This document shows, in pieces, positions 3,210-18,363 of a stretch of DNA of 64,000 bases. The DNA lies in assembly GCF_900117455.1 (NCBI RefSeq), contig NZ_FPHO01000002.1, positions 558,001 to 622,000 of the forward strand. Reading direction: 5' to 3'. A model generated the notes under the pieces. That model was not told the DNA's origin and searched no databases. It saw nothing but the letters and a program-made list of their open reading frames with translations. Origin of the DNA: Hyphomicrobium sp. CS1GBMeth3 (lineage in GTDB: Bacteria > Pseudomonadota > Alphaproteobacteria > Rhizobiales > Hyphomicrobiaceae). Position 1 is the first letter of the stretch. The number at the start of each line of letters is the position of its first letter. The position numbers were made by a program, and so were the translations under genes.

Positions 3210-3995
3210 TTGTACGAACGTGCTGCCAGTCCTGATCGAGATGCCGGTGCGCTACTGCCGATCTGGTACGTGGACGCGCGCCGGGCGCTGTTCGTCGGGC
3301 CGCTCGGCTACAATGCTCCACACGCGCACAGCGTGCCGGTCTATCTGGCGGGGCTCTATGAACCGTTCCGCCTGCGGATCAACGGCGGGCCGTGGCGGCA
3401 TTGCCGGACAGCGGCGATCCCGGCAGGCGTGTCCTACGAGTTCGATGTCGCGGGCCAGCCTCTTGCCGTGTTCTACCTCGAACCGAGCGAAGCGGGCGTC
3501 GAGGCGCTGGTGCCGCTCGTAGGGGAGGCGGACGAGGCCGACGGCGCGCGCTGCGGGCAAGGCGGTGCGTTCTCGCTGTTCCGTGACCTTTACGAATCCC
3601 CCGACGGGGGGGGCGATGCCGGAGCAGCGCTCGACAGCGTGCTCGCCTACTCGAAAGCGTGTGGGCGGCGTGCCTTCGATGCCAGGATTGCCGTGGCGGT
3701 GGCCTTGCTCTCGGATCCTGACCGTGCCCTGCCCGTCGGAGAGGCGGCGCGCTTAGCCGGGCTTTCTCCGTCGCGTTTTCAGCATCTCTTTGCGCGCGAA
3801 GTTGGCGTGCCGTTCCGCCGCTTCCGGTCATGGCAGCGGCTGCGGCACGCGATCAGTGGCATCGCATCCGGCGCGAGCTTCACCGCTGCTGCGCACGACG
3901 CGGGCTTCTTCGATCAGGCGCACTTCGCGCGCACGTTTCGCCAGACGTTCGGCGCGCCTGCGTCGCCCAGCTTGCGCCGCGTGCGGCGCGGGTAG
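3210..3995 (+). CDS. AraC family transcriptional regulator
   Basis: The protein has an N-terminal cupin-like sensing region and a C-terminal AraC-type double helix-turn-helix: EAARLAGLSPSRFQHLFAREVGVPF, then the second helix pair ending in DQAHFARTFRQTFGAP. I chose the TTG at 3210 because AAGGGGA (3196-3203) sits six bases upstream. In-frame ATGs at 3168 and 3135 are alternatives, but the second would overlap the start of the divergent Tat hydrolase. With the TTG start the protein is 261 residues. The divergent arrangement suggests control of that hydrolase or autoregulation. The inducer is unknown. Confidence 0.8.
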   Translation: MYERAASPDRDAGALLPIWYVDARRALFVGPLGYNAPHAHSVPVYLAGLYEPFRLRINGGPWRHCRTAAIPAGVSYEFDVAGQPLAVFYLEPSEAGVEALVPLVGEADEADGARCGQGGAFSLFRDLYESPDGGGDAGAALDSVLAYSKACGRRAFDARIAVAVALLSDPDRALPVGEAARLAGLSPSRFQHLFAREVGVPFRRFRSWQRLRHAISGIASGASFTAAAHDAGFFDQAHFARTFRQTFGAPASPSLRRVRRG

Positions 3996-4001
3996 CATCC
4001 T

Positions 4002-5387
4002 TTACGCGCTCTTCGCCAGGCCGGCCGCTTCGAGCGCGGCTGCAACGCGCAGGCAGAGATCCTCGCGCCACGGCGGGGCGATGACCTGGATGCCGTAGGG
4101 CATGGCTGCTGCCTCCCGCACGGGCACGGCCGCCACAGGCAGGCCAACGAACGAGATCGGCTGCGTATAGATGCCCATGTGCGCGCGCAGCGGCACGTCC
4201 TTGCCGCCGATGGAGATCGTCTTTTGGCCGATGAGCGGGGCGCTCGTCGGCGTTGCCGGCGCGAGGATCACGTCGTAGCGGCTGAATGTCTCCGCCATGA
4301 GGTCTTCGAACACGCGGCGAAAGCGTTGCGCGGCGACGTACCATGACGCGGGCAACAGGGCTCCGGCGAGGAACCGGTCGCGTGTGTCGGGGTCAAAGTC
4401 CGCCGGACGCCGGCGCAGCCGCTCAAGGTGCAAAGCGCTGCCCTCGGCGTTGGTGATCAGGAAGGCCGAGGCGCGCGCTTCGGCAGCGCGTGGGATGTCG
4501 ATCGCGTCGCTGACGTCGAGGGCCTGGGCGGCGCGGTCGAGCGCGGCGAGTGCGCCCGGTTCCGCGTCGGCGCGGAAGTAGCCGGTGGCGACCGCGATGC
4601 GCAGGCCGTCGTGGCCTTTCGCGATTTCACGCGTGACGTGCTCGACGGGGCGGCGCGCGCAAACGGGATCCGAGGCGTCGTGGCCCTGCAGCACGTCGTA
4701 GACGAGGCCGAGGTCTGCCACCGAGCGTGCGAACGGGCCCAGGTGGTCGAGGCTGTCGCAGAACGGGAACGTGCCCGTGCGCGGCAGGCGGCCGTACGTG
4801 GGCTTCAGGCCGTAAAGTCCGCAAAAGGCTGCCGGTACGCGGATCGAGCCGTTGGTATCGGAGCCGAGCGCGATCGGCACGAAGCCGGCTGCCACGGCGG
4901 CCGCCGAGCCGCCGGACGAGCCGCCGGTCATGCGCGTCGTGTCGAGCGGGTTGTGCGAGGGGCCGTAGTGCGCGTTCTCGCCGGTGAAATCGTAGGCGTA
5001 CTCACCCATGTTGAGGGCGCCGAGCAACACCGCGCCGGCAGCCCGCATGCGTTCGATCAGTAGCGCGTCGTCTGTCGCGCGAGGACCGGCGGCATTGATC
5101 TTCGAGCCGGCCCGCGTGGGGAGTCCGGCGACGGCGTAAAGGTTCTTGACCGCGTACGGCACGCCCGCGAGCGGCCCGAGCTGTTGGCCTTCGGCCCGGG
5201 CGCGGTCGATGGCCCGTGCTTCGGCGAGCGCGCGCTCGCGCGTGATGTCGGTGAACGCGTTGATGTCGCCGTCGCGCGCGTCGATGTCGGCGAGCGCAGC
5301 ACGCGCGAGGTCTTCGGCTGACACATCGCCGCGTGCGACGGCGCGTGCGATCTCAGCCGCACCGTTTGGACGTATGGTCGTTGTCAT
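4002..5387 (-). CDS. atzE: AtzE-type amidase (amidase signature family)
   Basis: An amidase-signature enzyme of 461 residues from the ATG at 5387; an ATG at 5399 would add four residues. The Ser-cisSer-Lys site is visible: Lys in [11 protein letters not shown], the [14 protein letters not shown] segment, and [20 protein letters not shown] carrying the nucleophile. The DTNGSIRVP form, with Asn instead of the second Gly of GatA, is like AtzE, the 1-carboxybiuret hydrolase. The start at 5387 overlaps the stop of the upstream small gene as ATGA, which suggests coupled translation. The true substrate is open; a related ureide or amide is equally possible. Confidence 0.75.
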
Positions 5388-5578
5388 TCCGTCGACCATG
5401 GCGTGAAGACGGGTGCGGCTTCGGTGGCGGCGGCCGCGCCGGTGCCTTCGACGAGTGCGGCCATGTTACGCGCAACCTCGAAGAAGGCAGCGACGTTCGG
5501 CTTCCATTCGGGCGCGATGCTGAGACCGAGCCCAGCCGCTGCCGCATCTATCCAGGTCGATGTGTCTTCCGTCGCCAT
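5384..5578 (-). CDS. atzG: AtzG-like small subunit (DUF4089)
   Basis: A 64-residue protein starting at the ATG at 5578, with AAGGA nine bases upstream; an upstream GTG at 5596 has no better signal. It matches the DUF4089 pattern: a helical WIDAAAAGLGLSIAPEWKPNV segment followed by a second helix (FFEVARNMAALVEG). AtzG is a GatC-like partner that wraps around and stabilises AtzE. Here the gene lies directly upstream of the AtzE-type amidase with a four-base overlap, which strongly supports a two-subunit enzyme. It is too short to judge substrate preference. Confidence 0.75.
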   Translation of the reverse strand: MATEDTSTWIDAAAAGLGLSIAPEWKPNVAAFFEVARNMAALVEGTGAAAATEAAPVFTPWSTE

Positions 5579-5712
5579 GCCGTGTCGTCCTTGCACTGCA
5601 CCTCGTGAATTCCGATCTACCGTAGTAGCCGGCAGGGGACTGACAAGAGGGAACTTTGGCGCGTTGCACGACGACTCGCTATGTTGTCATCGCACATGAG
5701 CAGGAGGACCTA

Positions 5713-6630
5713 ATGAGCTGGCAGCCTTGTGATGATCCCAAGCCAGGCGACCCGGCCTCTTGCGACGCGATCGAGCATATCATCGTGCCCCGCGCGCGTG
5801 ACCTCGGCGGGTTTGAGGTTCGTCGTGCGCTGCCGGCGTCCGAGACGCAGATGGTCGGTCCTTTTATCTTTTTCGACCAGATGGGGCCGGCCGAGTTTCT
5901 GATCGGAAATGGCATTGACGTGCGCCCGCATCCGCACATCGGACTGGCGACGGTCACTTATCTGTTCGCCGGTGAGCTGATGCACCGCGACAGCCTCGGC
6001 ACTGAGCTCGCCATCAGGCCGGGGGAATTGAACCTGATGTCTGCCGGGCGCGGCATCGTGCACTCGGAGCGCTCGAGCGTCGAGGCGCGGCAGACGGGGT
6101 CTCGGCTGTTCGGCATTCAGGCGTGGGCAGCCTTGCCCCAAACGCACGAGGAGGCCCCGCCGGACTTTGCGCATTACAGCTCGACGGAGCTGCCGCGCAT
6201 CATGGGCGAGGGCAAGACCGTGCGCCTCATCATGGGCTCGCTCTACGGCGCGCAGTCGCCGGCGCGCTTTCCGCACGACTGTTTCTATGCCGAGGCGGTG
6301 CTGGCTCCCGGAGCCGTGCTGCCGCTCGACCCCGAGCACGACGAACGGGCGATCTACATCGTTTCGGGGGAGATCGACATCGCCGGGCAGACGTTCTCGC
6401 CCGGGCGCTTGCTCGTATTCCGGCCCGGCGACCGCATTTCGATCCTTGCTAACTCCATGGCGCGGCTGATGCTGGTCGGGGGCGAGCCGATGGACGGTCC
6501 GCGGCACATCTGGTGGAATTTCGTTTCTTCATCAAACGACCGTATCGCCGCCGCAAAGGCCGACTGGAAAGCGCGGCGATTCTCGCCGGTGCCGGCTGAC
6601 GGTGAGGAGTTCATTCCGTTACCTGAATGA
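5713..6630 (+). CDS. Pirin family protein
   Basis: A 305-residue bicupin protein. The N-terminal pirin domain includes [14 protein letters not shown] and the metal-binding [15 protein letters not shown], with a further His and Glu in MHRDSLG and HSERS. The C-terminal cupin (about 170-290) contains [14 protein letters not shown] and FRPGDRISI segments. Pirins bind iron or act as quercetin-2,3-dioxygenase-like enzymes; the role here is unknown. I chose the ATG at 5713 because AGGAGG lies at 5702-5707, although the frame is open further upstream. It stands alone, divergent from the AtzG/AtzE pair. Confidence 0.85.
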
Positions 6631-8853: not shown

Positions 8854-10257
8854 ATGGCGATCGCGAAGACTGAAGCTCCGGCGTCGAAATCGGGCACCGC
8901 GTGCCTGCGATGCGTGCTCGTGTTCCTCGCGGCGGTCGCCGCGTCGCTCATCCTTGTAAGTGTCGTCGATCAGGTGTCCTGGGCGCAGAGAGGCTACGAA
9001 GCCTCGGTTTACAACGGCAGCACGCTGCGTTCGTGGAGGGAGCTTGCGAGGCCGGCCTACCCGAGGGATGACTCGTGGCTGCCGATGATCGAGGCTCTGG
9101 AGGTGGCTCGGTCTCCGGACGGCGATCGTTTGTACGAGAAGGTGTTCTTCGACGACAAGGTCAAGTTCCAGTATCCGCCGACGAGCCTCGTCTACCTCGT
9201 CGCCCTCGAGCCGTTAGGACTGACCTCGGTCGATGCGCTCAATGCCATCAATGCCGCGCTGTTCGCGGCAACCTGCGCGGCGTTCGCTTATCTGGTTCTT
9301 GTTCTGCTGCAACCCGCGTCGACACAAAGTATGTCGTTGCGCTCCTGGGCCGTCGCGCTGGCGCTCATGCTGGCGGCGTTATTCTACTACCCGGCGATGC
9401 GATCGCTCGAAATCGGCCAGATCCAGGTCTGGATCAATGCGCTCTTCACGTTCGCCTGCATTGCGTGGCTGCGCGGCGCGAGACCGACAGCCGGAGCGCT
9501 GCTGGGATTAGCTGCAACCATGAAGCCGCAACTCGGTATCTTTCTGGTTTGGGCCATGCTGTGGAGGGAATGGGGGTTCCTGCGCGGCTTTCTCGCAGCC
9601 GGACTCCCCGTCGGGATCATGTCCCTGCTTTTGTTCGGCGTTCACAATCACATCACCTACCTCAACGTGCTGTCGTTTCTCGCGGAGCGCGGGGAAGCCT
9701 TCTTCGCCAATCATTCGGTCAACGGCCTCATGCACCGGGCGCTTGGCAACGGGGACAATCTGGGGTTCCACGACCACGTGTTCCCGCCGGCAGATACGCG
9801 TGTGATCAGCATGACTTTCGTCTCGAGCCTGGCGTTCCTGGCCATCGCGCTGGTGCCCGCGTTGATCGAAGGAGGACGGCGGCGGCCTGACCTCATCGAG
9901 GTCGCGATCACGGCGCTGTGCGCGACCATCGCTTCGCCGGTTGCCTGGGAGCACCACTACGGAATCATGCTGCCCATGTCCGGGATTGCCTTGGGGCTGC
10001 TCTGTTCCGAGCCCGGCCAGCGGGCAGCGCTCGTGTGGCTGGCTGCGAGTTGGATGATCGCGACCAATTATCTGCCCGTCGCGAACCACCTTAGCGATAC
10101 GTGGCTCAATTTCGTCCAGTCGTATCTGCTGTTTGCGGCCCTCATTCTCCTGGGCCTACTCCTCTACCTGCGCAGAGTAGGCGTGAGGAGTGAGATCACG
10201 CTGCCGCGCGATCAAGCCGTCGCGGCTACGGCTCCGCCTTCGCGAGCAGGTTTTTGA
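8854..10257 (+). CDS. GT87-type polyprenyl-phosphate-dependent glycosyltransferase
   Basis: A 467-residue integral membrane protein (DUF2029/GT87 type) with one N-terminal helix, a long extracytoplasmic loop containing the acidic segment VFFDDKVKFQYPP (about residues 100-112), and about nine further helices. Family traits include FQYPPTSLVY, SLEIGQIQVW, TMKPQLGIF and the late SPVAWEHHYGIMLP motif. GT87 enzymes transfer a sugar, often mannose, from a polyprenyl-phosphate carrier outside the cytoplasmic membrane. Its last 32 bases overlap the convergent SGNH gene. Its place beside the FkbH/ACP/MBOAT operon suggests a shared envelope glycan or glycolipid. The sugar is not known. Confidence 0.75.
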   Translation: MAIAKTEAPASKSGTACLRCVLVFLAAVAASLILVSVVDQVSWAQRGYEASVYNGSTLRSWRELARPAYPRDDSWLPMIEALEVARSPDGDRLYEKVFFDDKVKFQYPPTSLVYLVALEPLGLTSVDALNAINAALFAATCAAFAYLVLVLLQPASTQSMSLRSWAVALALMLAALFYYPAMRSLEIGQIQVWINALFTFACIAWLRGARPTAGALLGLAATMKPQLGIFLVWAMLWREWGFLRGFLAAGLPVGIMSLLLFGVHNHITYLNVLSFLAERGEAFFANHSVNGLMHRALGNGDNLGFHDHVFPPADTRVISMTFVSSLAFLAIALVPALIEGGRRRPDLIEVAITALCATIASPVAWEHHYGIMLPMSGIALGLLCSEPGQRAALVWLAASWMIATNYLPVANHLSDTWLNFVQSYLLFAALILLGLLLYLRRVGVRSEITLPRDQAVAATAPPSRAGF

Positions 10258-11341
10258 TCTCCTCCGACCATGCCGTCGCGCCTTTGACGTTCAAGTGCTC
10301 GAGATCGCCGAAATGATCGGCGGGCCTTGAGTAAACCACGTCCCCCAGCACGTGAAAGTTGGGATGACGCTTCGCGATGGCGGCCAGCAGGCTTTTGAAG
10401 GAGGCCACGACCTCGGGAGACATGTGCTCGAACGTGGCGGGGTTGAGCGGCGGCGTCACGAAGTAGACATCGGCGTCGTTGTCGCGCAGCAGCGTGAGCA
10501 CGCGGTCCAGATAGTCCATCATGATCGGGGAGGGCGTGAACTTCCTTTGCTCTGCGTCGTCGGCAATGGCGTTTGAAGCGAGGCTCGTGCCGAAGTAGTG
10601 GTGGCCACGATCTCGCAGTGTCGCGTCGATCTCGCGCTCGTTGCGGCCTCTGCGTCCCACAAAATGCGCGTTTATCATCGCTGGTGTGTAGTAGGGCGGG
10701 AAGCTGATGCGGTAGCTGAAGTTCCGCACTATGTCGAGAAGCGTGCCGACACGGGTGTCGTGATAGATCAGCGGATCCTGTACCCGCAGCGAGGTCTTTC
10801 TGACCTCTTCCATTTCGTCGAAATCCAGAAAACCGAATTGCGCCGTTCGCTCCCAATAGACCTGGTTTCGCGAAATATCGATCGGAAGGAATGAGATCAG
10901 CGCCCGCTTCAGGGGAGCGGGACATGCCAGCGCGCGACGCGCAGTGTAATAGTTCTCGATCTGGGTGCCGCCGCCGAGGGCAAGATTTGTGACGTTGTCG
11001 CCCATGGTCGCCGGGATGAGGCCTGCCATGGCGCGGGAGTCGCCTAGAATGATCGTGTCGCCCTGATCGCATTCTTTCACGATCTGCATCTTGGCCGTCC
11101 ACATCGCCCATTCGGGGTCCATGAACCACATGCGGCCGTAGGCAGCCCAAGGCCAGGCCGCGCCGAAGATCAGCGCCACCATCAGGCCTGTGGCTATGAA
11201 GAAATTGCGGAGCGAATAGGCAAAAGGTTGCGTGAGGCGGTCGGCCGGTGCCTTTGGTACCGGATCAACGACATCATTCAGGAGTGACTTGTCCAATCTG
11301 GTGCCCCGACTATGTCCAGCCCCGCAACAATGCCGCGTCAT
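10226..11341 (-). CDS. Membrane-anchored SGNH/GDSL-like protein (DltD/AlgX-like role proposed)
   Basis: A 371-residue protein with one hydrophobic helix near residues 46-68 and a large, presumably periplasmic domain. A block-I-like motif GDSRA lies at residues 100-104 (Ser102), and an Asp-x-x-His pair, DLEH, at 346-349 near the C-terminus matches the SGNH catalytic Asp/His. Proteins of this layout accompany MBOAT acyltransferases (DltD, AlgJ/AlgX, PatB) and help transfer or remove acyl groups on envelope polymers. It is 161 bases downstream of the hotdog-SDR gene, on the same strand as the MBOAT operon. The start is uncertain, since the first 40 residues look unlike a natural N-terminus. The function is inferred. 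Confidence 0.6.
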   Translation of the reverse strand: MTRHCCGAGHSRGTRLDKSLLNDVVDPVPKAPADRLTQPFAYSLRNFFIATGLMVALIFGAAWPWAAYGRMWFMDPEWAMWTAKMQIVKECDQGDTIILGDSRAMAGLIPATMGDNVTNLALGGGTQIENYYTARRALACPAPLKRALISFLPIDISRNQVYWERTAQFGFLDFDEMEEVRKTSLRVQDPLIYHDTRVGTLLDIVRNFSYRISFPPYYTPAMINAHFVGRRGRNEREIDATLRDRGHHYFGTSLASNAIADDAEQRKFTPSPIMMDYLDRVLTLLRDNDADVYFVTPPLNPATFEHMSPEVVASFKSLLAAIAKRHPNFHVLGDVVYSRPADHFGDLEHLNVKGATAWSEEIKNLLAKAEP

Positions 11342-11502
11342 GCAGCCTAAGTGGTGTTAAAGCAATTTTGAAGCCAAGCGTCGGTGAAACCGCGATAATT
11401 GTTTTTGCTAAGGTTTATCATGGCTGTGGCTTTCGCCGCGGCAGCCTCATCCATTTGAGCTCCCGGCTTCTCAATTCTACCATTGAACAGCGGCGGTTCA
11501 TT

Positions 11503-12987
11503 TCAGGGCTCGGCGCGCAGCAGAGGCAGGATCACGGCCACCGGGTCCTCCGTCTGAAGGGGTAGGACCGTTGCGGTCTGGTCGGTCAAGACGCGTGGAA
11601 TGCGAGGAGCCGAGATCGATATCCCTGTGGTCGAAGCGAGCTCGGCGGCCAGGATTTCGCCCGCGGCTTTTGCCATGGCGTATTCCGCCATTCCCTTTGG
11701 CCGCTCTTCGATGAACGCAGTCGACGGGTAGAGGATTGCGTGCGGTTTCTCTGTCGTGTGGACGAGCGCCCATCTTAGGAGCCGTGCGAAGCCGTCCACG
11801 TAGACCGCCGCGAACGCGTCGAAGCGTTCTTTGGTGTAGGGTTGGGTGGCCTGGTGTGCAATCCGGGGCGTGGCAAAATAATAAAGGTGCGTGAGTGTGG
11901 GCGGCAGCTCGGCGAGCTGTGCATCGAAATCGCCGAGCACATTGCAGCGCAGTGTGCTTGCGGCAGCCTCGCCGCGCCCCGCGCAGATTTCCTCTGCGAT
12001 GGCATCCGCGTCGTCCCGGCCCGTGGCGTAGGTCAGGTAGACCTGTGCGCCTCCTGCGGCCAGCAGCTTCGCCGTGACGGCGCCCAGCCCGCGCGAACCG
12101 CCGATCACGAGGGCTTTGCGCTGCGAGAACTCGTCCTTCGCGACTATTCCGCTCAAGGCCGCAATGGACGGCGGCTCGACAGGCTCGGCGCGCATGAAGG
12201 CCTGGACCTGGCCGGCGATGCCGCAGCCGAGAACCTTCATCGTGACGAGGCGGAAGCGGTCGTCTGTCCGCACGGTCTGCCAGCGGATGCCGCGCGGGCT
12301 GGCGTCTTCGTCGACAAAATCCACGGCCAGGCTCGAGAAGATCGAATGGAGCCCAGGGCAGATCATGCCGACGAGAGTCGATAGCCGAGCCAGCGCTTCC
12401 ACGCGCGCCGTGCCAAGGGCCTGCGAAAGCGCGGGAAACATCGCGGCGGCGTTGCTTCCGTCGCTCAACGGGATCCATCCCGCCCCATCTGCCATGTGCG
12501 GAAAGGCTGGCGCCAGCGGCGCATCGCCGAGCGTCCAGCCCTGTGCGTCTGGGCCGTCCCACGGCGGCGTCGCAGGGCGCGCGCCAAACTTCACGTCGAT
12601 GATGGTCGTCACAACTCCAACCGACGTGAGCTCTACTTTGATCGCCTGCTCGGTGCGCCGTGCGAGGCGAACCTCGACGCCGGAGTCGAGATACATGAAT
12701 TTCGGGAATTGAATCTTGAGCGACGCCGCCTGCGAGAAAGCGGGCTCTGCCGCAACAATTTTTTCGAGCGCCCAGAGCGCGCCGTGAACGCCATGAACCA
12801 CCGGCGCGCCGGCTTGCGTGCGGCGTGCGGCGCAGGCGTCGACGTGAATCGGATTGTAGTCCCCCGACAGACGCGCAAACGCCAACTGGTCCGCTGCGCT
12901 GAAGGTTCGGGCCGCTGACACCTCGTGGCTCACGGGCTCGCCCCTGCATTCGACTGCGTGATCGGCTCCCGATTCATGCGCGCCCAC
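11503..12987 (-). CDS. Double-hotdog (MaoC-like) hydratase fused to a short-chain dehydrogenase
   Basis: A 494-residue fusion. Residues about 20-150 form a MaoC-like hotdog with the catalytic Asp/His signature LSGDYNPIHVD and the VVHGVHG turn. Residues about 165-285 look like a second hotdog (STLVGMICPGLHSIFSSLAV). Residues about 290-490 are a short-chain dehydrogenase with the cofactor loop GGSRGLG and a catalytic YAMAK (Tyr and Lys), with a Ser upstream in LYPSTAF. The combination suggests dehydration/hydration and ketoreduction of a carrier-bound acyl group. It lies 18 bases after the MBOAT gene and downstream of the ACP gene, so the acyl carrier protein is the likely partner. The substrate chain is not known. 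Confidence 0.75.
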   Translation of the reverse strand: MGAHESGADHAVECRGEPVSHEVSAARTFSAADQLAFARLSGDYNPIHVDACAARRTQAGAPVVHGVHGALWALEKIVAAEPAFSQAASLKIQFPKFMYLDSGVEVRLARRTEQAIKVELTSVGVVTTIIDVKFGARPATPPWDGPDAQGWTLGDAPLAPAFPHMADGAGWIPLSDGSNAAAMFPALSQALGTARVEALARLSTLVGMICPGLHSIFSSLAVDFVDEDASPRGIRWQTVRTDDRFRLVTMKVLGCGIAGQVQAFMRAEPVEPPSIAALSGIVAKDEFSQRKALVIGGSRGLGAVTAKLLAAGGAQVYLTYATGRDDADAIAEEICAGRGEAAASTLRCNVLGDFDAQLAELPPTLTHLYYFATPRIAHQATQPYTKERFDAFAAVYVDGFARLLRWALVHTTEKPHAILYPSTAFIEERPKGMAEYAMAKAAGEILAAELASTTGISISAPRIPRVLTDQTATVLPLQTEDPVAVILPLLRAEP

Positions 12988-13005
12988 GTTAACCCGCGGT
13001 TGATC

Positions 13006-14586
13006 TCAGAATTGGAAGTACAGAAATTCGGTCGCCCCGGCGAGATACATCACCGAGAGGCCGGCAGCGGTTCCGAGCGAGAGGCCCCAGGCAAGGTTGG
13101 GCTTCCATTGCAGGCGTTCAGGGAGATCCGTGGAGACACGGCCGATGATGGGGCCGTACTTGGCAAAAAGCTCGCCCGAGTTCGGAGCGAAGAAGGCGAT
13201 GACGGAGCAGGTCAGAAGCAGGACTGCGGTCGACGGTGCGAGCAGCGTCGTCGTGATGAGATGGATGGTGTAGGTGTCCTCCGGCGGGAGCGTTCCATAC
13301 ATCATACCGCGCAGCCCGACCATCCCACCAAGCAGCCCCAAAGCCGTCGCGACGTACGGCGCGCGGAAGAACACTTGCGACACGAGCACGGCTATGTACG
13401 TAAGAGTCTGGCTCGCGACGGTCCCAATCAAAGCGAGGGAGGGGTTTTGTTTCTTCTTGTCGAACTTCGGACCGAAAATCCGCCACGCGTGGTTTACGGT
13501 GAGATAGAAGCCGTGCAGCACGCCGAATATGACGAATGTCCAGCCGGCGCCATGCCACACGCCGGCTAGAAACATGGTCGCCAATGTCGGAAAGCCCACC
13601 AGCAGCAGAAACCCTTCTAGGGTGGCGGCGCCCTTGGCGGCGATTGGCTTTCCTGCGGCGGCGCGCTTCCGGGTCACCCAGAGCGCCATAGGGTTATAGA
13701 GGTAGAGCGTCAGGTAGCGCGTAAGCGTCATGTGCCAGCGCTGCCAGAAGGCGATGATGTTCGTTGCCTTGTAAGGCGAGTTGAAGTTCGCCGGGAAGCG
13801 AATGCCAAACATGCGCGCCTGGCCGATCGCCATGTCCGAATAGCCCGAGAAATCGAAGTAAAGCTGCATCGAATAGGAAAGCGCCGCTATCCAGGCCGGC
13901 ACGAAGCCGATTTCGGAGCCGTGCGTGAACCCGACGCCCGTGATCGGCGCCAGCTGGTCGGCAATAAGCACCTTCTTAGCCAGTCCGACGATGAAAATGC
14001 CGAGACCGACGGCGATGTTCTCCGCCTTGTACTTGTAGGTGTCGGGGTTCTCGAACTGCGGCATCATCTCGCGGTGATGCAGGATCGGCCCAGCGATGAG
14101 GTGGGGAAAGAAGGTTACGAAAAGTGCGTAGTCGAGCAGGCGTCGTCCTCTGGCGATGCCGGTCTTGCAGTCGATCAGATAGCCCATCTGCGTGAACGTG
14201 AAGAACGAGATGCCGAGAGGCAGCAGGATACCCCCGGCGTCGAAATCGATGTTGATGCCGATCCGGCTGAGGTTGGCGAGAACGAAGCCGACGTACTTGT
14301 AGTAGAAGAGGAGCGAGAGGTTGGCGACGATGGCAAGCGTGAGAACGATGGTCTGAATGCGGTTGTTGCGCTCGAAATGCTGCAGCAGCAGGCCGAAGAT
14401 GTAGTTGGCGAGGATGGATCCGGCGAGCAGCGTTACGAAGAGCGGGTTCCACCATCCGTAGAACACGAACGACATAAGGACCAGCCAGCCCGCTGCCAGG
14501 CGATTGCTGGACTTGCCAAGGTAATAGTACCCAACCACGGAGATGGGCAAAAACGCGAATATAAACGCGAATGAATTGAATAACAT
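13006..14586 (-). CDS. MBOAT family O-acyltransferase (AlgI/DltB-like)
   Basis: A 526-residue polytopic membrane protein with about a dozen helices. Hallmarks of the AlgI/DltB type are the start MLFNSFAFIFAFLP, YYLGK, LPLGISFFTF (about 122-131), PHLIAGPILHH, DFSGYSDMAIG, FWQRWHMTL (about 280-288) and LAGVWHGAGWTFVIFGVLHG, which holds the expected catalytic histidines at about 345 and 358. Such enzymes pass an acyl group from a cytoplasmic thioester donor to an envelope polymer or lipid outside. It lies 25 bases after the ACP gene, so the ACP is the likely donor. The acceptor cannot be seen from sequence; flanking GT87 genes point to a glycan or glycolipid. Confidence 0.88.
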   Translation of the reverse strand: MLFNSFAFIFAFLPISVVGYYYLGKSSNRLAAGWLVLMSFVFYGWWNPLFVTLLAGSILANYIFGLLLQHFERNNRIQTIVLTLAIVANLSLLFYYKYVGFVLANLSRIGINIDFDAGGILLPLGISFFTFTQMGYLIDCKTGIARGRRLLDYALFVTFFPHLIAGPILHHREMMPQFENPDTYKYKAENIAVGLGIFIVGLAKKVLIADQLAPITGVGFTHGSEIGFVPAWIAALSYSMQLYFDFSGYSDMAIGQARMFGIRFPANFNSPYKATNIIAFWQRWHMTLTRYLTLYLYNPMALWVTRKRAAAGKPIAAKGAATLEGFLLLVGFPTLATMFLAGVWHGAGWTFVIFGVLHGFYLTVNHAWRIFGPKFDKKKQNPSLALIGTVASQTLTYIAVLVSQVFFRAPYVATALGLLGGMVGLRGMMYGTLPPEDTYTIHLITTTLLAPSTAVLLLTCSVIAFFAPNSGELFAKYGPIIGRVSTDLPERLQWKPNLAWGLSLGTAAGLSVMYLAGATEFLYFQF

Positions 14587-14611
14587 GCACAGCCCTTGAA
14601 GGAGGCAACGA

Positions 14612-14869
14612 TTATGCGGATACGCCCTTGGCTGTCTTCTTTTCGATCAAGTGCACGAACTCGCCGACGTTCTTCAGCCCCTCGATCTCGGCGGTCTGGA
14701 ACTTTATTTTGAAGTGCTCCTCGGCGGCGACGAGGATGTTGATGTGATTAAACGAGTCCCATCGATCGATGTCGTCGGCCGTCGTATGCATCGTCAGCTG
14801 GATGCTGTCGTCGTCAAACGTTTCGCGAAAGATGTCAGTCAAGCCCGAAAGGATTTCTGCGTCGGTCAC
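14612..14869 (-). CDS. Acyl carrier protein
   Basis: An 85-residue acidic helical carrier protein. The phosphopantetheine attachment site is Ser39 in RWDSFNHINI, the usual D-S-F/L context. It starts two bases after the stop of the FkbH gene and is followed by the MBOAT gene. This pairing suggests it is not the fatty-acid-synthesis ACP but a dedicated carrier loaded by the FkbH protein and used by the MBOAT protein. It would need activation by a phosphopantetheinyl transferase encoded elsewhere. Confidence 0.85.
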   Translation of the reverse strand: MTDAEILSGLTDIFRETFDDDSIQLTMHTTADDIDRWDSFNHINILVAAEEHFKIKFQTAEIEGLKNVGEFVHLIEKKTAKGVSA

Positions 14870-14871
14870 GG

Positions 14872-16788
14872 TCAGCCTTCCACGATCTGGATAAAGGTTT
14901 CCTTGGAGACGAAATCGCCGAGCGGGAGGTGCCAGCGTGTTGCGCCATCCTCGCCGTTCTCGAACAGCTTAAAGCCGAGCTTTCCGTAGTGCTCGCGAAC
15001 CATGCCATTCTTCGCGGTTGGGATGTACTGGCCGACGATGCTCTCTGCGCCGAGCCGCTGAGCTTCCGCGGCGACAAGATTGAGCGTCGCCTCCTCTACC
15101 TGGCGCCCCAGCACACGGCAGCTCATCAGCCAGGTCTCGATTTGCATGTCGCGCACGCTTTCGTCGTTGAGCCTGCCGATAACGACGCCGATGATGCCGT
15201 TATCGCCGAATGCGTCCGTCAGCCGTAGCTGAAGTGTCATCGACTTCGGATCGTTCATAAACGCTGCCACGTCGCTTTGCGAATACCGACGCGTGGTCAG
15301 GTTAAATTGGTTGGTCTTGTTGATGAGCTGGACGATGCGTTGCAGGCCGATGCTGTCGAAGTGGCGCCATTCGAGCCGCATATCGAGGCTCTTGAGGTAC
15401 GAGACGAGATCTGTCGATGATTGGCGGAGCTGCTCGCGTTGCAGGTTGCCCTGATACTGGGCTGACCGTGCGATGTCGTCGTTCGTGATCCGCAAGGCTT
15501 CGAAAGAGCCGGAGTTCGAGATGCAGCGGCCATAGAGCGCCGGATCCTCCGGCAGCTCCGGCACGGGCACCATGGGAAGCTCCCGACGCACGAACTCTCG
15601 CTCGAACGGGTTGTCGTCGGCGAAAACAAGCGAATCGATGCCGATGTTGAGGGTCTTCGCGATCGTGCGCAGGTTGGACGGCTTGTCCTGCCAGTTGGCG
15701 ACAAAGCAGGCGATGTCTTGCCGGCGGAGAACCATGTCGGGATGCTTCTCGAACGGCGCGAGCGCGTTCGCCTCGTCGTTCTTCGAGCACACTGCGAGAA
15801 TGATGCCGCGCCGCGACAGCTCCTTGGCGTAGTGCTGAAACGCGACGAAGGCCTCGCCAAGCGCGCTGCCCTGGCCGAGGACGATCCCTTCAAGCCCGTC
15901 GTCGCCGATGACGCCGCCCCACAGCGTATTGTCGAGGTCGAGAACGAGGCATTTCGCGGAGCGCCCCTGTTGGGCGGCGAGCAGGCGCGCGACGAGGTCG
16001 CCGTAGCCCGGAGCGGCTTTGGGCGAAATCTCCTGCTTGGCGCGATGCCAGAGCATGGGGTCGTGCCAGGCGAAGAGGCCGTCGTCGGATATGCTGCTGT
16101 CCAGGGCGAGGATATCCACGCCTTCAGCATCGGCGGCCTCGCGCATCCGGTAATTCAACGCATCGATCAGCGCGCGCTGCGAGCCGGCCAGCCTATGCTC
16201 GTTGCTGCCGAGCAGCGGTGACGCGAGGGGCAGGACGGTTTGCTGAATGACCTGTCCCTGGCACGCGTCGAGCGCCAGGCGCCAGAGCGCGCGCAGCCGC
16301 TCTATCGCAGCGTCGATCGCGCCGCGTGCCGCCGCCGTATCGGCTGCCGCGTTGGGGGCCCCCAAAAGGCTAGCGGCATCGAGCGAAAGCAGTATCGCGG
16401 TCGGCCGAAAGGCGTAAAGCGCGGAATCGGGATCGTTGAGCTCCTGGACGTACTGGCCATAGTCACCAACGTGGGTCGTGAGGTGCAGGCCGCGGCGGAG
16501 CGCGCCGACGCGCAGGCCCGGCAGCAGGTGATCGACCGTCGAGCCGCCGAGGACGGCAAGGCGGACCGGCTTGGTGGCGATGCCGGCGGCCGGCGGCTCG
16601 CTCCCGAACAACCGAAGCAGGACCCGATCGAGCCGGTTGGTGCGAAGGAAGTCGATCCGGGAGTTGGCGAGCGCCCGCAGGCTATCCCAGGACGCGGCGT
16701 CAGGCCGGTCTATTGCCTGTAATGCCGGTAGCCAGTCCGGTCGTTCCGGCAGCCAATGGAAATCATTCGTCAGCATTGTGTGCCGCAC
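14872..16788 (-). CDS. FkbH-type HAD-IIIC protein
   Basis: A 638-residue three-part protein. Residues about 70-270 form an SGNH-like N-terminal region (LAVLGGSTVDHLLP and later WHDPMLWHRAKQEISP). A HAD phosphatase core starts with the nucleophile motif DLDNTLWGGV at 284-293 and continues with VCSKND and FADDNPFE. The C-terminal third (about 490-638) is GNAT-like. FkbH proteins dephosphorylate 1,3-bisphosphoglycerate and load the glyceryl group onto a carrier protein in polyketide pathways. The gene for a carrier protein follows after two bases. The start could be the GTG at 16788 or the ATG at 16776. The glyceryl substrate here is inference. Confidence 0.85.
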   Translation of the reverse strand: MRHTMLTNDFHWLPERPDWLPALQAIDRPDAASWDSLRALANSRIDFLRTNRLDRVLLRLFGSEPPAAGIATKPVRLAVLGGSTVDHLLPGLRVGALRRGLHLTTHVGDYGQYVQELNDPDSALYAFRPTAILLSLDAASLLGAPNAAADTAAARGAIDAAIERLRALWRLALDACQGQVIQQTVLPLASPLLGSNEHRLAGSQRALIDALNYRMREAADAEGVDILALDSSISDDGLFAWHDPMLWHRAKQEISPKAAPGYGDLVARLLAAQQGRSAKCLVLDLDNTLWGGVIGDDGLEGIVLGQGSALGEAFVAFQHYAKELSRRGIILAVCSKNDEANALAPFEKHPDMVLRRQDIACFVANWQDKPSNLRTIAKTLNIGIDSLVFADDNPFEREFVRRELPMVPVPELPEDPALYGRCISNSGSFEALRITNDDIARSAQYQGNLQREQLRQSSTDLVSYLKSLDMRLEWRHFDSIGLQRIVQLINKTNQFNLTTRRYSQSDVAAFMNDPKSMTLQLRLTDAFGDNGIIGVVIGRLNDESVRDMQIETWLMSCRVLGRQVEEATLNLVAAEAQRLGAESIVGQYIPTAKNGMVREHYGKLGFKLFENGEDGATRWHLPLGDFVSKETFIQIVEG

Positions 16789-17037
16789 TGCAAGCAGTTC
16801 AATTCATTCATCTGGCAGGGCTATAAAAACCGTCGGCAATCGCCGCTCCGTTTTGCAGTATGTATTATCGCATTGCGGAACAGCCGGTGAAAATATAACC
16901 AAATGGGTAAAGGTCAGCGTATCGCACGCAACTTTACCATGCCCTATTTGATGCTTTGCCTAGTGTCGCAAATATCTGTTGAATCAATTTCAGCGGCAAA
17001 ACGCTGAGCCGCGCGGATGATGCTCAAGGGGGATTAG
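16789..17037. promoter_or_regulatory. AT-rich divergent promoter region
   Basis: The 249 bases between the leftward FkbH operon and the rightward GT87 gene are clearly more AT-rich than the coding regions around them (for example GGCTATAAAAACC near 16820 and TTTGCAGTATGTATTATCG near 16855). Both transcription units must start here. I cannot point to a specific -35/-10 pair with confidence. A strong AGGGGG sequence at about 17027-17032 is the ribosome-binding site of the rightward gene. Confidence 0.45.
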
Positions 17038-18363
17038 ATGAGCGGGAGCCTTCTGGCGTTGGTCCTGCTCGTGCAGCTGGGAGGGCTTCTCGCGGGGATC
17101 GCGCTTTTACGCTCTCCGGGCCTCGCCCTTCGCTCTCCTCGGACCAACGTAGCCGTGGCAACCGTCATCTCGGCTGCAATGGCGGCGTTCGTGTTCGCGG
17201 TTTCAGAACCCGGCTTGCTGTTCAACGATTTCCGCAAGGCGTACTACCCGGCCGGTCAAGTGATCCTCGAGCAGCCGGGCGCGCTTGCACCGCTCATCGA
17301 CAGCATCTCGTTCGTCAATCTTCCGATCGTTGCCTATCTGTTCGCGCCCTTCGGTATTCTGCCGTTCAAGGGGGCGGCTATTGCCTTCTTGCTGCTTGGC
17401 TTCGCCATGTCGCTGTGGGCCTGGAAGCTTCTGGCTCTCGAAGCCAGGCTGGAGCACCGCCAGCAGTGGCTCCTGCTCTTCCTGTTCGCCGCCAATGGAC
17501 CGCTCCTCTATTCGGCAAAGGAAGGCAATACAAGTCATATGGTGCTGCTCGGGCTGGTCGCCGGGCTCATCTACCTCCGGCGTCAGCGAGATATTGCCGC
17601 CGGCGTGGTGCTCGGGGTATGCGCGCTCATCAAGCTGCCGCTTCTCATCTTCGGCGCCTACTTCGTCTTGCGGCGGAACTGGCGGGCCGTCGCGGGCTTT
17701 TCCGGCGTCCTTGCGTTGTCCGGGCTGCTCTCGATCCTGATCTTCGGGTGGGAGCTCAATCAGCGCTGGTTCGAGCTGTGCGTGCTGCAGTTCGGCAGCA
17801 ACCCCATCGGCGCCTTCAACGTGCAATCGATCCCGAGCTTCCTCATACGCCTGGATGCCGGCCCGGAGGTTCTTCGCGACTGGTCCGCGGTGGAGATCGC
17901 TCCGCTGCAGAGGTTCGTTGGCACGGGGCTGGTGCTGCTGATGGCTCTTGCTGCCATCGCCGTCTGCGCGAGACTGTCGGACGCCGAGAACGAGCCTCGG
18001 CCTCAAGAACTAGTCGCACTCGAGTACGCCTTGGTGGTCGTCCTGTCGGTAGTTTCGAGCCCCATGTCCTGGTCGCACTACTATTGCTGGCTTCTCGTCC
18101 CGATCGCGCTGTTTCTCAGCCCCAGCTCCGCCGTAGCAGCGACGCCGCTTGCCCGCCGTGTGATATGGGCGGCCATTTTCCTGATCTCGCCCGCGGTCGT
18201 GCTGCTGTCGTTTGAAACGCCGGCCATCGAGACCCTTTACGTCAAGGTCTTGCTCTCGCACCTTTTGGCCGGGGGATTGATCGTCTACGGGATCTTGATC
18301 TGGGCGCTCGCGCGAGCCGAGCCCAGACACGTCCACAGCGGCGTGGCGAGAGTAATTCATTGA
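17038..18363 (+). CDS. GT87-type polyprenyl-phosphate-dependent glycosyltransferase
   Basis: A 441-residue membrane protein with about ten helices, of the same broad type as the gene at 8854. Family features are LLFNDFRKAYYPAGQVIL after the first helices (with the acidic catalytic Asp), FVNLPIVAYLFAPFG, SAKEGNTSHMVLLGL, LIKLPLLIFG and SSPMSWSHYYCWLL near the C-terminus. An AGGGGG ribosome-binding site precedes the ATG by about six bases. It is divergently transcribed from the FkbH/ACP/MBOAT operon. The likely role is adding a sugar from a lipid-linked donor to an envelope molecule; donor and acceptor are unknown. Confidence 0.75.
   Translation: MSGSLLALVLLVQLGGLLAGIALLRSPGLALRSPRTNVAVATVISAAMAAFVFAVSEPGLLFNDFRKAYYPAGQVILEQPGALAPLIDSISFVNLPIVAYLFAPFGILPFKGAAIAFLLLGFAMSLWAWKLLALEARLEHRQQWLLLFLFAANGPLLYSAKEGNTSHMVLLGLVAGLIYLRRQRDIAAGVVLGVCALIKLPLLIFGAYFVLRRNWRAVAGFSGVLALSGLLSILIFGWELNQRWFELCVLQFGSNPIGAFNVQSIPSFLIRLDAGPEVLRDWSAVEIAPLQRFVGTGLVLLMALAAIAVCARLSDAENEPRPQELVALEYALVVVLSVVSSPMSWSHYYCWLLVPIALFLSPSSAVAATPLARRVIWAAIFLISPAVVLLSFETPAIETLYVKVLLSHLLAGGLIVYGILIWALARAEPRHVHSGVARVIH

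Follow-up and report, generated by a model that had tools for sequence, protein, structure and literature searches.

A candidate envelope acylation operon, possibly charged from glycolysis by an FkbH-type protein, in Hyphomicrobium

Introduction

What donor feeds a membrane acylation locus whose only loading-type enzyme belongs to the FkbH family? The question is raised by five closely packed open reading frames (ORFs), all on the reverse strand, at positions 10226–16788 of a 64,000-nucleotide stretch of the Hyphomicrobium sp. CS1GBMeth3 genome (contig NZ_FPHO01000002.1, positions 558,001 to 622,000), which was analysed at its full length and is referred to here as the window. An earlier description made from the sequence alone (the original prediction) had read the five leftward genes as encoding an FkbH-type HAD-IIIC protein, a carrier protein, a DltB-like MBOAT acyltransferase, a fusion protein containing an SDR domain and a membrane SGNH protein. 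The ORFs are present in the ORF listing of the window, and their families were assigned by profile scans and conserved residues.

We propose, with a probability of roughly 55%, that these genes form an envelope acylation operon charged from glycolysis, in which an acyl group travels from FkbH to the acyl carrier protein (ACP), through a MaoC/SDR fusion and then via the MBOAT and SGNH proteins to a glycan. Each part is of a known kind, and the combination is not described in the open-access literature searched.

FkbH and the carrier protein

The window survey, which took in ORFs of at least 70 residues, gave the following five genes.

14872..16788, reverse strand: FkbH-type HAD-IIIC protein, 638 residues, proposed loader of glyceryl from 1,3-bisphosphoglycerate onto ACP
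14612..14869, reverse strand: acyl carrier protein, 85 residues, phosphopantetheine serine S39 in DSFNHI
13006..14586, reverse strand: DltB-like MBOAT acyltransferase, 526 residues, C-terminal FLYFQF acyl-shuttle motif with Y523
11503..12987, reverse strand: MaoC dehydratase and SDR reductase fusion, ORF of 494 residues, probable start near 12933 as suggested by its database copy (P0001, 476 residues)
10226..11341, reverse strand: SGNH/DltD-like protein, ORF of 371 residues, probable start near 11296 as suggested by its database copy (P0121, 356 residues), proposed final acyltransferase

The intergenic gaps measure 2 bp (FkbH–ACP), 25 bp (ACP–MBOAT), 18 bp (MBOAT–fusion) and 161 bp (fusion–SGNH). 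The FkbH protein scores 308.9 bits against TIGR01686 (cut-off 146.65) and 29.2 bits against FkbH_N (cut-off 27), matches PDB entry 3slr with 229 bits and carries the HAD motif DLDNTLWGG at residue 284, which conforms to the DxDxT signature of the family. Loading of a glyceryl group from 1,3-bisphosphoglycerate onto ACP by FkbH has precedent in the available part of PMC7489565. The carrier protein falls below every curated cut-off (15.3 bits versus 20.8 for Pfam, and 38.2 versus 66 for the best NCBIfam ACP model) and nonetheless retains the DSx serine, S39.

The proposal that FkbH stands in the place of the adenylating enzyme DltA agrees with our family scans, which identify no loading-type enzyme other than FkbH in the five-gene set. 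An AMP-binding domain of the DltA type is absent from these genes and from the two flanking GT87 glycosyltransferase genes, to which the search for DltA was confined, and a ketosynthase is absent from the same set. The SGNH, MBOAT and FkbH proteins, the three submitted to PHROGs, returned no match.

The MaoC/SDR fusion

The fusion protein matches MaoC (PF01575, 45.1 bits, cut-off 27) and adh_short (PF00106, 29.5 bits, cut-off 26.6). In an alignment of 29 sequences, made up of the window protein and 28 relatives picked from 120 listed, residues D43/N45/H48, S422/Y436/K440 and G296/G300/G302 are invariant. The D/H and S/Y/K residues are what we take to be the hydratase and SDR active sites, and both sites are intact throughout the alignment. 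A single hotdog was detected (residues 24–120), and residues 131–284 had no PDB match by phmmer and no match to the first hotdog in a profile comparison with residues 20–130 (probability 0.2%); the double-hotdog architecture of the original prediction could thus not be shown.

The putative transmembrane relay

The MBOAT protein is recognized by PF03062 (91.9 bits, cut-off 27) and scores 174.3 bits against the DltB model, below its curated cut-off of 375. It aligns with the DltB structure 6bug (E 2e-24) across both histidine motifs, WHM and WHG, which read WHMTLT and WHGAGW in the window protein. Its last six residues (521–526 of 526) are FLYFQF, in agreement with the acyl-shuttle motif FxYxxF known from PatA and DltX. 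According to the available part of PMC12148441, PatA acylates the tyrosine of this motif at its own C-terminus and the Dlt system carries the motif on DltX. Among 30 related MBOAT genes in the loci that we fetched, 18 end in FxYxxF, seven in IVYKxF and five in neither, one of the latter being cut by a contig end; the window's own genome copies were left out of this count, and the terminus of one Hyphomicrobium metagenome assembly gene (L064, 8421–9979) was taken from a second reading frame. That gene is split across two frames, by either a sequencing error or a real frameshift.

The SGNH protein has a hydrophobic N-terminal stretch, judged by eye. Pfam yields DltD and DUF1574 alone, both sub-threshold (DltD 18.6 versus 22.7), and no SGNH-type model scores over its cut-off. 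Residues S102, D346 and H349, the presumed catalytic Ser/Asp/His set, are invariant across 19 sequences, namely the window protein, 17 database relatives and one protein from a Paraburkholderia locus (L048). Searching the PDB with the SGNH profile (E<=10) gave two matches, both to DltD, with E-values of 0.021 and 0.025; because these weak matches are the sole ones, 'DltD-like' denotes a remote likeness. The profile matched in three of the 385 genomes searched in the host's class, one of them the host itself, and a protein database search reaching relatives with shared short words returned 18 proteins, the window's own among them. When candidate SGNH neighbours in L048, L015, L033, L038, L007 and L012 were submitted to Pfam, only that of L038 passed (ALGX, 31.6 versus 26.5). 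The conserved residues support the view that the MBOAT and SGNH proteins hold the putative relay residues of a transmembrane acylation system.

The fusion and FkbH are linked across genomes

A scan of a genome collection with the fusion family gave 118 relatives, from which 80 loci were kept. They span several proteobacterial classes, Acidobacteria, Omnitrophota, Nitrospinae, a Mycobacterium and others. Within the fetched DNA, 63 of the 80 loci hold FkbH, 53 hold ACP and 21 hold MBOAT (one of these a 22-bit edge fragment), and all three are found in 17. As a baseline, an evenly drawn sample of 190 genomes from the host's class, with the host among them, contains 19 that encode FkbH, 18 of them above the cut-off and most with a single copy; we estimate from this one class that FkbH would fall in well under 1% of random 21-kb stretches. 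MBOAT occurs in 69 of the 190 genomes as background and in eight of the 18 FkbH loci described below. A chance neighbourhood was rejected on the strength of these two comparisons, and the linkage between FkbH and the fusion is not due to chance.

Distances between FkbH proteins correlate with those between fusions (r 0.51 over 67 rows, reached by 0 of 1000 permutations), with species relatedness not controlled for; L136, a likely copy of L007, was dropped from this comparison and the close pair L021/L137 was kept. An FkbH tree built with FastTree from stop-to-stop ORFs (support values not given) places loci that have the fusion among loci that lack it. The fusion profile exceeds 400 bits in four of 297 genomes of the host's order, host included, which characterizes the module as patchy.

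Two loci illustrate other surroundings of the fusion. In a Mycobacterium (L028, 7838–11446), FkbH, ACP and a MaoC/SDR fusion occur together, and no MBOAT was detected in the fetched DNA. L044 carries, in the vicinity of FkbH and the fusion, an Antibiotic_NAT protein (aminoglycoside N-acetyltransferase type; 4955–5857) and an Acyl_transf_3 protein (12312–13409), which suggests that acyltransferases of other kinds also draw on the acyl-ACP module. The MBOAT–SGNH arm may not be its only outlet.

The full gene set and its probable glycosyltransferase partners

The original prediction knew of no characterized system with exactly this gene set and suggested looking for the five-gene neighbourhood in other genomes. 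That search gives one correction: two Paraburkholderia loci (L048 and L080) hold FkbH, ACP, MBOAT, SGNH and fusion on one strand, so the set is not unique to the window, and FkbH/ACP/MBOAT sets recur. In L048 a Pfam-confirmed GT87 gene lies between the SGNH and fusion genes, and L080 has a homologous ORF. The Hyphomicrobium contig L064 breaks off within the fusion gene, after a divergent GT87 gene, FkbH, ACP and MBOAT. In the window, two GT87 genes flank the operon.

8854..10257, forward strand: GT87 glycosyltransferase gtA (PF09594, 66.7 bits), convergent with the SGNH gene, probable partner
17038..18363, forward strand: GT87 glycosyltransferase gtB (PF09594, 91.5 bits), divergent from the FkbH gene, probable partner

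These are the only two GT87 matches in the host genome, both on the strand opposite to the operon. A homologue of gtA is found inside the Paraburkholderia operon (201 bits) and one of gtB occupies the same divergent place in L064 (467 bits). GT87 enzymes use polyprenyl-phosphate sugars, and a periplasmic glycan or glycolipid is for this reason the likely acceptor; judging by the neighbourhood, it would be built by the two glycosyltransferases.

FkbH loci without the long fusion

Of 20 FkbH loci located in the host's class we fetched 18, all except the window's own and a fragment below the cut-off (G476). MBOAT is present in eight (L119, L120, L122, L124, L125, L127, L132 and L135), all of which also have ACP; ACP is found in 12 of the 18 overall. 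The long fusion occurs without MBOAT in two loci (L121 and L126). MaoC is present in six, comprising these two long fusions and four other architectures: L130 and L134 have shorter MaoC and SDR fusions beside FkbH (in L134 with overlapping ORFs and an incomplete SDR part), L132 (10033–13093) has individual neighbouring genes for MaoC, SDR and FkbH on the same strand, an unfused form of the donor half, and L119 has MaoC alone, between ACP and FkbH. The fusion-derived profile detected no MaoC in the other 12 loci, three of which lie on contigs shorter than 4.2 kb. SDRs are possibly undercounted, since the corresponding SDR profile did not pick up the stand-alone SDR in L132. We read these loci as two versions, FkbH–ACP–MBOAT alone and one with a dehydratase/reductase.

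In L120, an AMP-binding, carrier and Acyl_transf_3 fusion (3354–6200) lies near the FkbH–ACP–MBOAT set, and two differently charged acylation systems may stand side by side there.

Proposed mechanism and relation to known systems

If the chemistry follows that of the families concerned, FkbH would move the glyceryl group of 1,3-bisphosphoglycerate to S39 of ACP, the MaoC domain would strip the 3-hydroxyl of glyceryl-ACP to yield enol-pyruvyl- or pyruvyl-ACP, and the SDR domain would reduce this product to lactyl-ACP. Lactyl is the likeliest group because MaoC and SDR are both present. Sequence motifs and precedent suggest that the MBOAT would then transfer the acyl group from ACP to its own Y523 within FLYFQF at the outer face, that this tyrosine would pass it to S102 of the SGNH protein, and that the SGNH protein would esterify a periplasmic glycan or glycolipid.

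The operon would work like Dlt and PatAB but belongs to neither, because no DltA is encoded among the five genes, the DltB and DltD cut-offs are not reached and a carrier protein is present, unlike in PatA. Like the Dlt system (DltA/B/C/D/X), which D-alanylates teichoic acids, it combines a carrier protein, a DltB-like MBOAT and a remotely DltD-like SGNH protein; it differs in that its five genes encode FkbH but no adenylating enzyme, in bearing the shuttle tyrosine on the MBOAT rather than on DltX, and in its additional MaoC/SDR fusion. A true Dlt system was accordingly rejected (DltB 174.3 versus 375, DltD 18.6 versus 22.7, no DltA among the five genes). With PatA/PatB and related MBOAT–SGNH O-acetylation systems it shares the C-terminal FxYxxF shuttle and a separate SGNH protein. 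The available part of PMC12148441 states that MBOAT/SGNH pathways other than Dlt have no carrier protein and that PatA uses acyl-CoA as donor, whereas here FkbH is encoded in the same row of genes and the carrier-protein gene lies 25 bp before the MBOAT gene. The predicted mirroring of DltB/DltC/DltD is thereby sharpened: the set is Dlt-like in its carrier protein and PatA-like in the fused terminal tyrosine of its MBOAT.

The donor half resembles the modules that make glyceryl-ACP with FkbH in tetronate and methoxymalonyl pathways, which also pair FkbH with a stand-alone ACP (PMC7489565, available part). It differs from them in that the five genes include no FabH-like or oxidizing partners of that kind and in that its output would go to a membrane acyltransferase. 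A further chemical parallel is found in natural product assembly. In bryostatin- and oxazolomycin-type systems, FkbH, a dehydratase and a ketoreductase convert 1,3-bisphosphoglycerate into lactyl starter units, which, unlike the group proposed here, serve polyketide assembly lines and not envelope acylation. The open-licence literature gave no paper joining bryostatin, FkbH and lactate, no lactyl precedent in the available parts of the papers examined for one and, among the matches listed, no paper on FkbH and MBOAT in envelope acylation.

Weighing the readings

Several observations weigh against a glycolysis-charged envelope acylation operon with this set of steps. The lactyl identity of the transferred group is a deduction: six of the eight FkbH–MBOAT loci show no MaoC with the profiles used. 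None of the eight FkbH–ACP–MBOAT genomes has the long fusion (E up to 1e-20), nor do two genomes with SGNH relatives at the same limit; this ten-genome search contained no positive control, but the same profile gave matches in the order-wide scan. In one locus (L140, 7949–10748) an SGNH relative adjoins an MBOAT; the 11 kb of DNA retrieved there contain neither FkbH nor ACP, and the genome has no long fusion. The similarity of the SGNH protein itself to DltD is weak. Seventeen of the 80 fusion loci have no FkbH, many of them being short or cut; as L006, L025 and L032 lack it despite 10 kb on both sides, orphan fusions exist. Many of the 59 fusion loci that show no MBOAT are likewise cut by contig ends. 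Finally, FkbH and the fusion both exceed our thresholds in 67 loci (62 from the set of 80 and five further ones, with L136 probably duplicating L007); they share a strand in 47 and lie on opposite strands in 20, so a single operon is not the rule.

The same relay could carry glyceryl (or its epimer), with the fusion serving another substrate or only adjusting stereochemistry. The FkbH–ACP–MBOAT loci without the long fusion (eight of 18), six of them with no MaoC found, make glyceryl transfer plausible for those loci, and because of these six the other versions may carry glyceryl. For the window we regard this as unlikely: the fusion gene has the MBOAT gene on one side and the SGNH gene on the other, 63 of 80 fusion loci also carry FkbH, both active sites of the fusion are kept, and MaoC with SDR recurs near FkbH in other architectures. 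A different acyl-ACP, whether pyruvyl-ACP, a hydroxymalonyl-type unit of the methoxymalonyl pathway or an ordinary fatty acyl donor, seems quite improbable. FkbH-derived glyceryl-ACP is proposed to be oxidized to hydroxymalonyl-ACP in polyketide pathways, a route that needs two dehydrogenases (PMC7489565, available part); here MaoC and one SDR would fit dehydration and reduction, and neither the five genes nor the two flanking GT87 genes encode a ketosynthase.

We are similarly sceptical that the acceptor of the acyl group is a secreted small molecule or natural product and not an envelope polymer. Natural products are the topic of the FkbH papers found, and FkbH and MBOAT do occur together in clusters for cyanobacterial suomilide/aeruginosin peptides, where, in the available parts of PMC13122637 and PMC10143770, the MBOAT is proposed to acylate (in varlaxin, to glycosylate) the product. 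In the suomilide cluster, however, FkbH is a domain of a nonribosomal peptide synthetase (NRPS) and the MBOAT is proposed to acylate a hexose, as far as these partial sources go. A scan of 17 window genes revealed neither an NRPS nor a polyketide synthase; the operon also includes an SGNH partner and is bordered by GT87 genes.

If the glycolysis-charged acylation operon is confirmed, it would add a high-energy glycolytic acyl phosphate as a third charging route for an MBOAT–SGNH relay, next to acyl-CoA (PatA) and an adenylated amino acid (DltA), and would tie surface chemistry directly to glycolytic flux. It would also account for the clustering of FkbH, ACP and MBOAT genes in the sampled genomes and point to a route, open to testing, by which bacterial glycans could acquire lactyl or glyceryl esters. 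Only tentatively do we extend it to a modular, widespread pathway in which FkbH, ACP and MaoC/SDR would convert 1,3-bisphosphoglycerate to lactyl-ACP, needing neither free lactate nor an ATP-dependent ligase, and interchangeable acyltransferases, MBOAT–SGNH in this case and different ones in other genomes, would place lactyl on surface glycans.

Genomic context in the host

At the thresholds used, the host genome encodes a single FkbH and a single MBOAT protein. A pair of overlapping sigma-70-like matches upstream of FkbH (16864–16893) constitutes weak evidence for a promoter; promoter-like sites number four against a shuffle mean of 1.9, and terminator-like sites five against 6.0. Ten further window ORFs were scanned; one has no match, and the others mostly encode ordinary cellular functions, including an amidase, enolase, parts of pyruvate dehydrogenase and HflX. 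Across 10–17 kb of the window, the GC content ranges from 0.58 to 0.64.

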